NCBI RefSeq assembly: GCF_002119805.1
Contig: NZ_CP021059.1
Location: forward strand, 1,364,001 to 1,428,000
Source of the DNA: Macrococcoides canis
GTDB lineage: Bacteria > Bacillota > Bacilli > Staphylococcales > Staphylococcaceae
DNA length: 64,000 nt
Direction of reading: 5' to 3'
Positions 4,068 through 47,630 of the stretch are shown piece after piece. A program made the position numbers and the translations under genes. Numbering within the stretch: the first letter of the stretch is position 1; the number at the start of each line of letters is the position of its first letter. The notes beneath the pieces are model-generated. The model was not told the DNA's origin and made no database searches. It saw nothing but the letters and a program-made list of their open reading frames with translations.

Positions 4068-4376
4068 ATGCATATGTTTCTTTACTGAATCAAGTTTGTC
4101 ATTCATCTTTCTCTGCTTATCTCTTCGGTCATCAATTCTAATATTTGTACACACACGTTCAACGCCTGCTTGAAACGGAGACTCATGAATACGCTCTAAT
4201 GCAGCAAGACAGTCATGCAGCTCGCCTTCAATCAATGTGCTCATCGGTGTCAGCTGATAGTCAATTTTCCCTTCTTGCTTCATCTCTTCAAGAATATTCT
4301 GTACTTCTGCTACATATTTACTGATACTGATAGATTGTCCATCCATCGGTATAATTACAACATCTATTATCGCCAT
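4065..4376 (-). CDS. yqgV: MTH1187/YqgV family protein (thiamine-binding-like fold)
   Basis: 103 residues matching the DUF77/MTH1187 family: an N-terminal beta strand AIIDVVIIPM, then SKYVAEVQNILEEM and a TPMSTLIEGE region. Relatives form small ferredoxin-like oligomers, some of which bind thiamine or its precursors; the cellular role in Firmicutes is unclear. It is translationally coupled to glcK (TAATG, one-base overlap), so it is the last gene of the yqg operon. Confidence 0.82.
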   Translation of the reverse strand: MAIIDVVIIPMDGQSISISKYVAEVQNILEEMKQEGKIDYQLTPMSTLIEGELHDCLAALERIHESPFQAGVERVCTNIRIDDRRDKQRKMNDKLDSVKKHMH

Positions 4377-5344
4377 TATATCTTCTCTCCTAGAACATAA
4401 ATTTTAATCAATCCTGCTGCTCCAATCATACCTGCATCATTACCTAGCTCGGCAGTTACAATCTTTGTCCCTTCATAAGCTGGTGGAAACGTTAAATCTT
4501 TATAATACTGTTCGATATGATCCACAAGAAACTGTCCTGCTTTCGATACGCCACCGCCTATAATAATGTGTTTAGGATTTGTCATGACGCTGATAATGCT
4601 GAATGCGTAAGCAAGATGTTTCGCCACTTTCTTGATTACATATACTGAAAACTCATCCCCTGCTTTTGCAGCATCAAATATCATCTTTGCCTGAAGCTCC
4701 TTTTTGATAATTGCCTCTTCTATCACTGTCTTGAATTGAAGCTCTTCATAATAATGATACGCTAGATTTACGACACCTGTAGCACTTGCAACCGTCTCAA
4801 GACAGCCATGCTTACCACAATTACATTTAAACCTCTGTTTCGTATCTACAGTAATATGCCCGAATTCACCTGCTGCACCATTGAATCCATGAATGAGTTC
4901 ATGATTGCTGACGATACCACCGCCTACACCTGTGCCAAGTGTAACACATACGACATCAGATTCATTTCTACCTGCGCCTTGAAATTTTTCACCGAGTGTT
5001 GCAACATTTGCATCATTATCTACATATACAGGTAGACCGCTCAATGCTTCAAACTGCGCTTTAATGTTAATCTTGCCATGCCAGTTTAAGTTAATCGCAC
5101 CATTAATGATGCCGTTGTTAAAGTCAACAGGACCAGGAACCCCAAGACCTACACCTATACAGTCTTTGATGTTTAAGTTAATCGTACTTAAATGCTTAAT
5201 AAATGAATCATAGATATTCTTTAGGATATGTGTTCCGTTATCATCTTTATTCGTAACGATTTCCCATTTTTTGATAATATTTAGATTTGAATCTAGTATC
5301 CCTAGCTTACAAGTAGTTCCACCTATATCTGCTGCTAAAATCAT
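4376..5344 (-). CDS. glcK: Glucokinase, ROK family
   Basis: Cytoplasmic kinase converting glucose to glucose-6-phosphate with ATP. The N-terminal phosphate motif DIGGTTCKLG, the sugar-binding GLGVPGPVD, the ATP region TLGTGVGGG and the ROK zinc motif CNCGKHGCLE are all present in 322 residues, the usual length. An ATGA overlap couples its start to yqgQ. The same gene pair occurs in B. subtilis, where the kinase is GlcK (YqgR). ROK repressors are excluded by the absence of an N-terminal helix-turn-helix. Confidence 0.94.
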   Translation of the reverse strand: MILAADIGGTTCKLGILDSNLNIIKKWEIVTNKDDNGTHILKNIYDSFIKHLSTINLNIKDCIGVGLGVPGPVDFNNGIINGAINLNWHGKINIKAQFEALSGLPVYVDNDANVATLGEKFQGAGRNESDVVCVTLGTGVGGGIVSNHELIHGFNGAAGEFGHITVDTKQRFKCNCGKHGCLETVASATGVVNLAYHYYEELQFKTVIEEAIIKKELQAKMIFDAAKAGDEFSVYVIKKVAKHLAYAFSIISVMTNPKHIIIGGGVSKAGQFLVDHIEQYYKDLTFPPAYEGTKIVTAELGNDAGMIGAAGLIKIYVLGEKI

Positions 5345-37478: not shown

Positions 37479-38423
37479 TTAAACGTCTCCTTCATATGCA
37501 TTGATTATCTTACCAACGAGCGGATGTCTCACTACATCAGCACCGTCGAAATGATGGATTTCTATACCTTTTACATTATTTAAGCGCTGAACCGCTTCAA
37601 TCAGGCCGCTCTTTACACCTTTTGGTAAGTCAATTTGTGTTTCATCACCTGTTATCACCATCTTAGATCCAAATCCGAGACGTGTTAAGAACATCTTCAT
37701 CTGAGCATGTGTCGTGTTCTGTGCTTCATCCAATATAACGAATGCGTCTTCTAATGTACGTCCGCGCATATATGCAAGCGGCGCGATTTCAATCACTCCG
37801 CGTTCAATCAGTCGGGCTGTATGTTCTGCACCGAGCACGAAATGCAGGCCATCATATAACGGACGTAAATATGGATCGACCTTCTCTTTCAAATCTCCTG
37901 GTAAGAATCCGAGAGACTCACCCGCTTCAACAGCAGGACGTGTTAATACGATACGCTTCACCTTTCCGCTGCGTAGACTCTGTGCAGCCATGACTACTGC
38001 AAGAAACGTCTTCCCTGTCCCAGCAGGTCCAATACCAATCACGAGATCGCTCTTCTTGATCTGATGGACATATAGACGTTGACCCATCGTCTTCGCACGA
38101 ATAGACTTTCCTGTAGCGTCTTTTGTGATTTCTTCATCGTACAGATCACTTAAGTAATGTATCGTGCCTTTGTCAGACATCTGAACAGCAGACTGTACAT
38201 CACGTAACGTTATATTCGTCCCTTTCTGGATTATCTTAAGCAAGCTTCTGATAACGACCTCAGCCTTAGAAACCGCGTCAGCCTCACCGTGTATCGTAAG
38301 TTCCTGACCACGTGTATGCAGTTCAACACCATAAACTTCCTCAAGATAATTTAAATGTTCATCGTTATTGCCAAGCATCGCCTGGGCTTCGTTTATATTG
38401 TCAAAGCGAATGATATCAGACAT
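37479..38423 (-). CDS. phoH: PhoH-family ATPase (PhoL type)
   Basis: 314 residues: an N-terminal KH-like region, then a P-loop with GPAGTGKT, Walker B FVILDEAQNTT and GDETQIDLP. The family is linked to RNA metabolism, often beside ybeY as here. The RNA target is not defined. Confidence 0.92.
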   Translation of the reverse strand: MSDIIRFDNINEAQAMLGNNDEHLNYLEEVYGVELHTRGQELTIHGEADAVSKAEVVIRSLLKIIQKGTNITLRDVQSAVQMSDKGTIHYLSDLYDEEITKDATGKSIRAKTMGQRLYVHQIKKSDLVIGIGPAGTGKTFLAVVMAAQSLRSGKVKRIVLTRPAVEAGESLGFLPGDLKEKVDPYLRPLYDGLHFVLGAEHTARLIERGVIEIAPLAYMRGRTLEDAFVILDEAQNTTHAQMKMFLTRLGFGSKMVITGDETQIDLPKGVKSGLIEAVQRLNNVKGIEIHHFDGADVVRHPLVGKIINAYEGDV

Positions 38424-38482: not shown

Positions 38483-38902
38483 TTATTTTATATCAGCAAC
38501 TCTAGTAAGCATTGCATCGGCTAAATTGAAGTTCTGAATATGAATATCCGGATTAACCTTCTTCAAGTGCGCAATAAATTCTAAGGTTAACTTAGGTTTC
38601 ACAACTATCTTCTGCTCTTTACCATAAATCTCTACGAATACATTATCTCGTACTTTCACACAGTTTAATAATTCAATATCGCGAATATTAACTGCTTTAC
38701 GCTCAAAACCTTTCGTTATATAAAGAACATGGCCCTCTATATCATAATATTCATTTAATAGCGTATAGATTAGAAGACTGCCTAGTACAAAAGAAGCGAC
38801 ACCACTCGTCAATGGATTTAAATAGAATGCAATGGAAACGAGTGTGATAATAATGACGAGTATTGACTTCTGAAATGAATTGACGATACTTTTATATCTC
38901 AT
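38483..38902 (-). CDS. Uncharacterised membrane protein, 139 aa
   Basis: I do not recognise a characterised family. Two adjacent hydrophobic segments (about 14-28 and 32-48) are followed by a soluble C-terminal region of about 90 residues with alternating strands (GHVLYITKG, VFVEIYGKEQKIVVKP) that looks like a small PH-like domain. AGAGGTGATGGC precedes the ATG. It occupies the place where sporulation genes yqfC/yqfD lie in Bacillus, between phoH and floA, but resembles neither. Confidence 0.65.
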   Translation of the reverse strand: MRYKSIVNSFQKSILVIIITLVSIAFYLNPLTSGVASFVLGSLLIYTLLNEYYDIEGHVLYITKGFERKAVNIRDIELLNCVKVRDNVFVEIYGKEQKIVVKPKLTLEFIAHLKKVNPDIHIQNFNLADAMLTRVADIK

Positions 38903-38989
38903 GCCATCACCTCTTACGTCTATTTTATCAAATTTTACTCGCGAAACGTTAATAGTTTCTCTGTAAACTAATAAATTATCATCTTAAAA

Positions 38990-39025
38990 TAAAAGACCTT
39001 AAGTGACTGAAACAATCACTTAAGG
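38990..39025 (-). terminator. Terminator after the 175-aa gene
   Basis: CCTTAAGTGA (38997-39006) pairs with TCACTTAAGG (39016-39025); a T-rich run follows on the minus strand. It ends the nfeD-floA-175-aa unit. Confidence 0.8.
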
Positions 39026-39030
39026 TTAAT

Positions 39031-39558
39031 TTATTGCAATGATTTCGGTTTACCGAGCACTTCGCTCATAATAATACCATTTAATACAGCAGCCTTATCA
39101 AACGTCAAGTCGTCTGATGCAACTTCAATTTCCTGCGCCATCACTAGACTTTGAATTCGATTCTGTTTTTGGCGTGATGTGAGATTCTGATCATTTTCTA
39201 TCTTGTAGATTTGTTCAGCTAATGTGAAATTATGCGTTGCAGCTTTCTTCTGTCTTGCAGGAACTGCTTGCTCTTTCACTTTCTGCTTCACATCTTCTTT
39301 CACATTCCTTTGATGCTGCACAACTTTCTTCGGCTTCATCTGACCACGCGCATTTGAAGCAGTTTTACTTGTCTCATCGTTTATACCTTGATTCACCGTT
39401 GCTTCGATCTGCTGCAGCTGTTTCTGAAATTCTGATAGCACACCTTTTGATGCACCACCCTTTTTACCAGGAGCAGCTTTCTTCTTATCATTATCTAATA
39501 AAGAAGAGACACCGCTAATTATAGCAATCAAGATAAATATTATCGTACCTACACTCAT
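39031..39558 (-). CDS. Uncharacterised single-pass membrane protein next to floA, 175 aa
   Basis: One N-terminal membrane helix (about 4-20), then a long, very basic, Gln/Lys-rich tail (residues 24-115, many Lys pairs, probably disordered or coiled) and a short ordered C-terminal part, LNGIIMSEVLGKPKSL. It starts 11 bp after floA, so it is in the nfeD-floA operon. Similar C-terminal ILSE-LG-P motifs occur in unnamed Firmicute proteins; no function is known to me. Confidence 0.68.
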   Translation of the reverse strand: MSVGTIIFILIAIISGVSSLLDNDKKKAAPGKKGGASKGVLSEFQKQLQQIEATVNQGINDETSKTASNARGQMKPKKVVQHQRNVKEDVKQKVKEQAVPARQKKAATHNFTLAEQIYKIENDQNLTSRQKQNRIQSLVMAQEIEVASDDLTFDKAAVLNGIIMSEVLGKPKSLQ

Positions 39559-39569
39559 GTAATCACCCT

Positions 39570-40559
39570 TTATTTTTTAGGCGTATCATCGTTCTTATCT
39601 GTCATCTTGTTGATAGCATTACGCATGCCTGTATCTGACTCAATATTCTTTAAGTTATAATATTCTTTAACACCGATATTACCAGACTTCAATGCTTCTG
39701 CCATTGCAAGCGGCACTTCTGCTTCCGCTTCCACAACTTTCGCACGCATCTCTTGTACACGCGCTTTCATCTCCTGCTCCTGTGCAACCGCCATCGCACG
39801 GCGTTCTTCAGCTTTCGCCTGTGCGATATTCTTATCTGCCAGCGCTTGTTCTGTCTGAAGATCTGCACCGATGTTCTTACCGATATCTACATCAGCAATA
39901 TCAATCGATAGAATCTCAAACGCAGTACCTGAGTCTAAACCTTTTCCTAATACAGTCTGAGAGATCATATCCGGATTCTCTAATACCGATGTGTGCGAAC
40001 GACTTGAACCGATTGTCGAAACGATACCTTCTCCGACACGGGCTACAATCGTCTCTTCACCTGCACCACCGACAAGACGCTCAATGTTTGCACGCACTGT
40101 AATTCGTGCTTTCGCTTTTACTTCGATACCGTTCATCGCAACACCGGCGATAAATGGTGTTTCAATGACTTTTGGGTTAACGGACATCTGTACCGCTTCT
40201 AACACGTCACGACCAGCAAGATCGATTGCTGCTCCGCGCTCGAACGGTAAGTTAATGTCTGCACGTTGCGCTGCAATGATTGCATCAACAACACGGTCAA
40301 CGTTACCCCCTGCTAAATAATGAGACTCTAACTGGTTCGTCGTCAACGATAATCCTGCTTTATGCGCTTTAATTAACGGATCAATAACGCGACGCGGCGA
40401 TACACGACGTAAACGCATACCGACAAGTGTACCAATACCGACTTTAACACCTGCAGCTAATGCTGAAATCCATAGACCTACAGGTACGAACGAGAATAAT
40501 ATCATCAAGAAGACGATAACGATAAATGCAATAATTCCAATACCTATTAATCCTGACAT
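39570..40559 (-). CDS. floA: Flotillin-like protein FloA
   Basis: 329 residues of the FloA/YqfA family: an N-terminal membrane hairpin (about 4-45), an SPFH domain, and an Ala/Glu-rich coiled tail ([19 protein letters not shown] region). Organises lipid-raft-like membrane domains in Gram-positive bacteria. Found with an NfeD partner just upstream, the usual pairing. Confidence 0.95.
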
Positions 40560-40576: not shown

Positions 40577-41206
40577 TTATATTGATTTAACAACGACACG
40601 TGTGCCTTCAACTTCAATAATTTTCACTGAAGTATCCTTCTTAATAAACGCACCTTCACTTACAGCGTCAATGCGTTTATCATCGTGCACGATAATACCG
40701 GAAGGTCTTAGATCAGTCAGACAAACAGCTACCTGCCCGACTAAGTATGACCTATCGTCATGCGATGTGTAACCTGCCTCCTTATTCGTCGAGTCATGTA
40801 ACACGACTTGCTGAAATAGAGGAATTTTCTTCTTGAAAAACTTCACTATGATCACCCATTCTATAAGCGCTATTATTAAGCAGATCGATACGAATAAAGT
40901 CATCATCATCATGTTGTCTCCAATAAGCAGAAAACTGATGATTATGCATATAATACCGATGATTCCAATAATAGCGCCGATAATAAACAACTCTAAAATG
41001 ACAAGAAGGATACCACCGATAAATAAAATAATAGCGAGTGCTTCCATATCACCGTTATAGATGTTCATGACAAAGAATAATAAGCTCGCAATTGCGCATA
41101 TTATCCCTGCACTACTGATTTTCGGGGTATAAAGCTGCCATATGCATGACATTGTCATAACAATCATCAACATAAGCAGGATGATATCCTGTAACTGCAA
41201 ATCCAA
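40577..41206 (-). CDS. NfeD-like membrane protein, FloA partner
   Basis: 209 residues with four to five membrane helices (about 7-130) and a C-terminal OB-like domain (GQVAVCLTDLRPSGII to the end), the short YqeZ/NfeD layout without an N-terminal protease domain. Start TTG 41206, eight bases after AAGGAGG. Cotranscribed with floA, 17 bp apart. Confidence 0.88.
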   Translation of the reverse strand: MDLQLQDIILLMLMIVMTMSCIWQLYTPKISSAGIICAIASLLFFVMNIYNGDMEALAIILFIGGILLVILELFIIGAIIGIIGIICIIISFLLIGDNMMMMTLFVSICLIIALIEWVIIVKFFKKKIPLFQQVVLHDSTNKEAGYTSHDDRSYLVGQVAVCLTDLRPSGIIVHDDKRIDAVSEGAFIKKDTSVKIIEVEGTRVVVKSI

Positions 41207-41297: not shown

Positions 41298-41331
41298 TAA
41301 AAAAAGAAGCCTGGATAATCCAGACTTCTAC
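41298..41331 (-). terminator. Terminator of rpsU
   Basis: GAAGTCTGG / CCAGGCTTC stem (with one mismatch) around GATTAT, then a seven-base T run on the minus strand. Confidence 0.88.
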
Positions 41332-47335: not shown

Positions 47336-47630
47336 TACTCGTAGTCATTCGATCTCTCGTATAGGTGATTGATTTTTTTGATGTATTATCGACGAGCAGC
47401 TTACCATTACGATCATAGATTCTTCCGCGTGGGACAGATTCATTGACTTCAATATTTTCATTGTTGTCAACAGCTTGTCGATATGCTTCTCCTTTTACAA
47501 TCTGTAAGTAGCCTAATCTTAATACGAGTATTATTAGCAAGGAGACGATCGCCATAAAAATGACGCTGATCCTTCTATTTGTCATTCGTTTTTGCTTTAG
47601 TTCATTGGATTCCTGTTTTACACGTTTCAA
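47301..47630 (-). pseudogene. pbp 5' fragment running into out-of-frame dnaK at the junction
   Basis: Bases 47,336-47,630 repeat the first 98 codons of the class B PBP: short cytoplasmic tail, membrane helix and start of the dimer domain, ending DRMTTS. After the junction 11 codons are read from dnaK in a wrong frame, then TGA. The product would be a 109-residue membrane stub with no transpeptidase domain. Confidence 0.88.

Follow-up and report, generated by a model that had tools for sequence, protein, structure and literature searches.

A YqfB-family membrane protein as a candidate third component of the Bacillota NfeD-FloA flotillin module

We propose that a 175-amino-acid (aa) protein encoded directly behind floA in the Macrococcoides canis DNA analysed here (a stretch of 64,000 nucleotides, referred to below as the window) belongs to the YqfB family and is a third component of the NfeD-FloA flotillin module of Bacillota, a reading to which, judging from sequence comparison, we assign a probability of about two in three. 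Bacterial flotillins organise membrane microdomains, and the family in question is a large one of small predicted membrane proteins that in our sample is exclusive to genomes with FloA and is covered by no curated model. An earlier note on this DNA had suggested that the protein and its 139-aa neighbour could be raft-associated factors specific to non-sporulating Staphylococcaceae; this is partly supported, being right in spirit for one protein, the FloA-associated one, and wrong in scope.

The floA locus and its predicted transcription units

On the minus strand of the window ORFs and Pfam matches give the order rpsU, nfeD, floA, the 175-aa gene, the 139-aa gene, phoH and ybeY, and comparison of loci indicates that the arrangement nfeD-floA-X-phoH-ybeY is conserved. 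The first gene of the operon, nfeD (40577..41206, TTG start; PF24961 and PF01957), is followed by that for the flotillin-like protein FloA (39570..40559; PF12127 and NF010186), by the 175-aa gene (39031..39558), which profile searches and locus comparison identify as encoding a YqfB-family, FloA-linked membrane protein, by the 139-aa gene (38483..38902) and, about 60 bp 3' of the latter, by phoH (37479..38423; Pfam), all on the minus strand. The two ORFs that had been described between floA and phoH are present at the coordinates given and are no chance ORFs: phmmer searches found matches to the 175-aa protein in 74 of 101 genomes of the taxonomic family and to the 139-aa protein in 22 of the 101.

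The gap between the floA stop and the start of the 175-aa ORF is 11 bp, and a plausible ribosome-binding site precedes the ORF. A hairpin-plus-T scan, which returned six sites per 6 kb vs 3.3 expected, placed a strong predicted intrinsic terminator 3' of rpsU (41305..41329, minus strand), at the upstream border of the operon, and another with a 14-pair stem directly 3' of the 175-aa gene (38996..39026, minus strand). Since these two sites flank nfeD, floA and the 175-aa gene, the three would by prediction form a single terminator-bounded operon with the 139-aa gene outside it, in agreement with the cotranscription of the 175-aa gene and floA claimed earlier. Terminator-like sites were found 3' of the family gene at 87 of 135 loci as compared to 5 of 135 random windows, the control being one such window per locus.

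Separately, a stretch of 33,189 bases that includes the floA region (window 14147-47335) is repeated head to tail at 47336 to about 80520, with 31,283 bases identical, the remainder 99.8% alike with small gaps, and the second copy running beyond the window. The repeat is either a tandem duplication of recent origin or an artefact of the assembly.

Anatomy of the 175-aa protein

The 175-aa protein has a single N-terminal hydrophobic segment (KD19 up to 2.5), which hydropathy places at about residues 3-23, followed by DKKK (39490..39552, minus strand); its pI is 9.7 and its tail holds 27 K+R vs 17 D+E. Only two parts are conserved in the family alignment, this N-terminal helix and a C-terminal motif at residues 158-172, VLNGIIMSEVLGKPK (39043..39087, minus strand), for which the consensus is GIIxSEILxxPK/R and in which Glu166 and Pro171 are invariant throughout the 27 rows. 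The membrane helix, basic tail and short C-terminal motif noticed at first reading are thus borne out, the motif being conserved in relatives, and between helix and motif lies a linker rich in K, E, Q, R, S and P that changes freely from member to member. An AF2 model from the single sequence was of low confidence.

Among 136 distinct family members (ORFs of fetched loci taken by profile score at E<0.05, with no position filter) the N-terminal hydrophobic segment is found in 130, and in three of the six helix-less members the helix may be missing because the ORF caller misplaced the start. The 15 residues after the helix carry a net positive charge in 119 of the 130 and those before it in 2 of the 130; by the positive-inside rule, this flip across the helix argues for a cytoplasmic tail, and hence for a predicted C-terminus inside. 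The motif columns of 126 pattern-matched members read I/V, I, W/M/F/L, S/A, E (122), I/V, L (115), x, P/K and P (126), this last count being partly fixed by the search pattern itself. Conservation across the family is uneven and in several lineages the motif is degenerate. At two loci of one lineage (L154 and L155, in genomes G432 and G478) the relative of YqfB is 52 aa long, having kept the motif and lost the membrane helix.

No Pfam model reached its cut-off in 12 proteins of the 175-aa family and no NCBIfam model did so in 10, so a label from either collection was dropped. Pfam searches likewise gave no PF01957 OB-domain match, as would be expected of an NfeD domain, in the 175-aa or the 139-aa protein, and no match of either to the sporulation-protein models PF07873 (YabP) and PF06898 (YqfD); the latter two models do match yqfC and yqfD of the relative at L154.

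Distribution of the family

A first profile, A1, matches 154 of the 157 genomes of the order and, weakly, 87 of 299 of the class, where some of the matches are chance ones to coiled linkers of long unrelated ORFs (e.g., of 715-1410 aa) that were left out of the members. Of 17 distant A1 matches hand-picked for follow-up, mostly by C-terminal coverage, 16 adjoin floA and the other, at L119, has one intervening ORF. At this last locus (family f3) the successive ORFs 4260-4739 and 4736-5068 behind floA both score E<0.05 in the family search. The family is present in named Bacillaceae genera, in Paenibacillus and in many further Bacillota families, and the Bacillota-wide profile matches rule out the restriction to Staphylococcaceae that had been suggested. 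Listeria innocua (E 0.0016) and Acetoanaerobium (E 1.2e-6) have the family gene with a weaker motif.

Some observations on Listeria may be added here. The YqfB-like protein of L. innocua retains the helix, and the gene before floA (L252:2651-2950) is annotated as NfeD and encodes just 99 aa with no evident membrane part. Four unannotated records labelled Listeria phage, H9-H12 (OR848161, OR846751, OR848103 and OR846717), contain a floA 62% identical to that of the window, the same identity as that of Listeria floA matches in a plasmid collection, and the floA of the phage records is probably host DNA.

An annotated Paenibacillus record reads rpsU-yqeY-nfeD-floA-hypothetical-yqfC-yqfD-phoH, the hypothetical protein having the motif (E 1.1e-13), and this order indicates that the 175-aa family gene occupies the yqfB slot. 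The idea that the two M. canis genes lie at the site of Bacillus sporulation genes therefore holds for the 139-aa gene, which sits in the place of yqfC and yqfD, and fails for the 175-aa gene, as yqfB is no sporulation gene. As the 175-aa family coexists with yqfC-yqfD, it does not replace sporulation genes, and with no YabP or YqfD match either, a sporulation origin was dropped.

The 139-aa neighbour

The 139-aa protein combines a hydrophobic N-terminal part with a bPH_4 domain (PF06713; residues 52-117, E 5.4e-6, 26.8 bits vs a cut-off of 22.9), which confirms the PH-like part ascribed to it earlier; within that hydrophobic part, both the alignment of the family and a model of low confidence show the two helices also ascribed to it. 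The single-sequence AF2 prediction of strands and a C-terminal helix has a mean pLDDT of 46.6, too weak to use, and a PDB search with the family gave two weak matches. Its 22 phmmer matches lie next to phoH in every genome and comprise 9 of 9 genomes of the window's own genus, 1 of 1 of genus g2, 8 of 8 of g4 and 4 of 6 of g5. The Staphylococcus-like genus g3 gave none in 77 genomes, and each of the 77 matches the profile of the 175-aa family. The protein is probably a separate bPH_4 membrane protein, transcribed apart from floA and perhaps together with phoH, and its gene is probably an ordinary neighbour with no link to FloA beyond the neighbourhood.

The suggested raft association can be divided accordingly: the 175-aa protein is very probably FloA-associated, given its operon and its floA-only family, and for the 139-aa protein, encoded behind the predicted terminator and missing from all sampled g3 genomes, a link to FloA finds no support. 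That both are raft factors specific to non-sporulating Staphylococcaceae, replacing sporulation genes, we find barely credible. The position of the 139-aa gene, with the floA operon on one side and phoH on the other, is indeed that of yqfC-yqfD at other loci, but the gene lies beyond the end of the predicted operon and is lacking in 77 of 77 g3 genomes, while the 175-aa family is Bacillota-wide and occurs alongside yqfC-yqfD in Paenibacillus and at L154.

Linkage to floA rather than to NfeD

Profile A3 describes the C-terminal motif alone (37 positions; 27 rows, all found by sequence, a few of them in loci that had been fetched for the gene next door) and at E<=0.01 gives 123 matches in 121 of 299 Bacillota genomes. 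FloA (PF12127) is present in 205 of the same genomes and lacking in 94, and all 121 have it. Where the place of floA is listed, 103 of 104 A3 matches lie directly downstream of it on the same strand, the 104th (G512 C18) having a floA upstream within its own locus, L127; for 19 of the 123 matches at this threshold the floA place is not listed. The wider profile A4 matches 171 of the 299 genomes at E<=0.01, all with floA, and 0 of the 94 without; because 11 of its rows were chosen by their position behind floA its sensitivity is partly circular, while the zero among the 94 is not. Fisher tests give 3e-49 for A4 and 6e-28 for A3, values that overstate the significance because genomes are not independent. 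Profile searches, which the earlier note had proposed as a check, thus tie the family to floA in 121 of 121 and 171 of 171 matched genomes, respectively.

These counts were extended by a named set of 80 loci. The family gene stands directly behind floA in all 46 named floA loci, with E<1e-5 in 45, these loci partly overlapping the genomes counted above and so not all independent; none of the 34 stretches without floA gives a match below 0.01, "without" here meaning none within the fetched stretch, several of which are short. Among 30 A3 loci followed, floA was found in 29 (at L133 as a 60-aa piece only); L151 covers 1981 bp at the end of a contig.

Matches away from floA appear when the threshold is relaxed. 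At E<=0.1, 8 of 120 placed A3 matches have no listed floA beside them, and two matches come from genomes that lack floA (E 0.034 and 0.057); G512 C18, with its own floA, is the only off-floA match to have reached 0.01. Conversely, 15 floA-containing genomes missed by A3 were inspected, and each has an ORF behind floA that follows the plan of helix, linker and weaker motif or, in G432 and G478, has the motif only. Thirteen of these ORFs score below 0.01 under A4, 11 of them being A4 rows themselves and one a twin of such a row; the match at L153 (0.0011) is independent, L158 scores 0.077 and L167 is alike by eye only. In all, 34 of the 205 genomes with floA have no A4 match at E<=0.01, two of the 34 having been inspected.

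NfeD, the other potential partner, is found in 261 of the 299 genomes, namely all 205 with floA and 56 without. The motif might dock on the cytoplasmic OB domain of NfeD and not on FloA, given that the shared operon usually begins with nfeD and that every genome with floA has an NfeD match. We regard this as improbable, as none of the 56 genomes with NfeD and no floA carries the motif (A4, E<=0.01), on which ground NfeD was rejected as the partner that the family tracks, and as the family gene follows floA with no nfeD adjacent at L154, L155, L166 and L247. No nfeD ORF lies directly before floA at L154 and L155, and at L247, in Sporolactobacillus putidus, where the motif scores E 0.097, a yqeY-like ORF is followed directly by floA.

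Alternatively, the conserved gene order could be a coincidence, with YqfB as an unrelated membrane protein that an ancient operon happens to keep in place, the order nfeD-floA-X-phoH-ybeY being itself conserved. This is in our view very improbable: the gene stays with floA at those four loci where nfeD is not adjacent and at L118, where there is no phoH within the 11-kb stretch; G512 has two floA genes and two copies of the family gene, one behind each; and none was found in floA-less genomes at E<=0.01. On the other hand, the family gene is absent from 2 of 2 Bacteroidota floA loci, which indicates that FloA as such does not need YqfB. With the family directly behind floA across the Bacillota sample and none found without floA, the 175-aa protein is probably a third part of the flotillin machine, and its partnership with FloA is strongly supported on genetic grounds by these sequence comparisons.

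A proposed role in the FloA-NfeD complex

How such a partnership might work can be sketched as follows. The single N-terminal helix would anchor YqfB in the membrane and leave its tail in the cytoplasm, where the SPFH domain of FloA lies; the disordered, charged linker would act as a flexible tether, and the amphipathic motif GIIxSEILxxPK/R at the C-terminus would dock on FloA. Once docked, YqfB might tether or organise the FloA-NfeD oligomer, or deliver clients to it. More tentatively, and at slightly worse than even odds, we suggest that throughout Bacillota the FloA-NfeD complex has YqfB as a dedicated third component, the YqfB motif, with the near-invariant glutamate, docking in a conserved basic patch of the SPFH region of FloA, and that YqfB has been overlooked since the linker diverges and only some 15 C-terminal residues are conserved.

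A lead for the docking site may lie in FloA itself. Conservation reaches at least 97% in 154 columns of the 133 Bacillota FloA sequences taken from fetched loci, and 12 of these columns are changed in both Bacteroidota FloA, the two sequences on which this comparison rests; 11 of the 12 fall within residues 52-161, including K64 (E in both) and R108 (M in both). These differences are only a hint. No relative of FloA was found in the PDB at E<=0.001.

The S. aureus FloA-NfeD complex has been described as clamping unfolded proteins and, in MRSA, is reported to help keep PBP2a active (PMC11222466). In that account the flotillin gene comes second in an operon headed by nfeD, cryo-EM was done with co-produced FloA and NfeD, and the words "third gene" and "downstream gene" are absent from the main text. 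The two S. aureus proteins also interact in a bacterial two-hybrid assay without other S. aureus proteins (PMC11222466), so their contact does not require a third one. If our proposal is true, reconstituted FloA-NfeD complexes miss a component, and YqfB is missing from the structural and chaperone models now current for bacterial flotillin; a peptide of the motif, some 15 residues long, would then offer a probe for mapping the docking site on FloA.

A different possibility, which we consider unlikely, is that YqfB binds a FloA-dependent client or protease, for instance an FtsH-like enzyme or an envelope-stress factor, with the motif as a recruiting or degradation signal and the operon merely co-regulating the genes. 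FtsH-type proteases are widespread and occur also without floA, whereas the motif is confined to floA-containing genomes in our sample. Such a role would nevertheless fit with the cooperation of SPFH proteins of other groups with FtsH (PMC2636767) and with the expression of B. subtilis yqfB, which belongs to the sigma-W core regulon (PMC3498285), stands in an expression table for B. subtilis strains with overproduction of secreted, lipo- or membrane proteins (PMC3514339), and responds to fusaricidin by induction (PMC3503724). We continue to favour FloA as the partner of the motif.

Comparison with known systems

The closest parallel to the M. canis operon is that of B. subtilis, where yqeZ-yqfA-yqfB form an operon of the sigma-W core regulon with a terminator after yqfB, and yqfC and yqfD, listed as sigma-E genes, come next with some read-through (PMC3498285). 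The operon is annotated with sublancin resistance (PMC3498285, PMC8144471). The 175-aa protein resembles B. subtilis YqfB in its slot behind floA and in the same terminator-marked operon border, and the slot is filled by a sequence family common to the Bacillus sp., Peribacillus, Metabacillus and Paenibacillus genes found there; its membership in the YqfB family rests on this position and on the Bacillus relatives and not on the B. subtilis 168 sequence. The linker is not conserved. The terminator hairpins after yqfB at six Bacillus-type loci (L107, L108, L113, L114, L174 and L181) are strongly alike and hold CATACAT (CATAAAT at L172 and L185), which is near the sigma-E -10 consensus. Given the listing of yqfC among sigma-E genes, the sporulation promoter may overlap with the terminator.

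In the open-access papers found on it, B. subtilis yqfB appears in regulon, expression and sublancin-operon entries only, with no mention of a family, a motif or a FloA partnership. Papers found by S. aureus locus tags made no mention of the two tags assigned to the third gene. A gene of unknown function is mentioned beside the Thermus SPFH5-NfeD pair in a paper whose figure, by its own account, may omit further operon genes (PMC2636767).

Sigma-W control and sublancin resistance are features of the B. subtilis operon, as given in PMC3498285 and PMC8144471, and are to be read as such. The E. coli YqfB, an ASCH amidohydrolase, shares only the name as far as known. As for the 139-aa neighbour, it resembles bPH_4 proteins in scoring above the PF06713 gathering cut-off and in having a hydrophobic segment before the domain, but it is divergent and in the 101 genomes of the family was found only outside g3, at the phoH site. 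Compared with NfeD, the known partner of FloA, the 175-aa protein has neither an NfeD Pfam match nor an OB domain; it is like NfeD a small membrane protein, co-operonic with the flotillin, with its predicted cytoplasmic part on the side of FloA.
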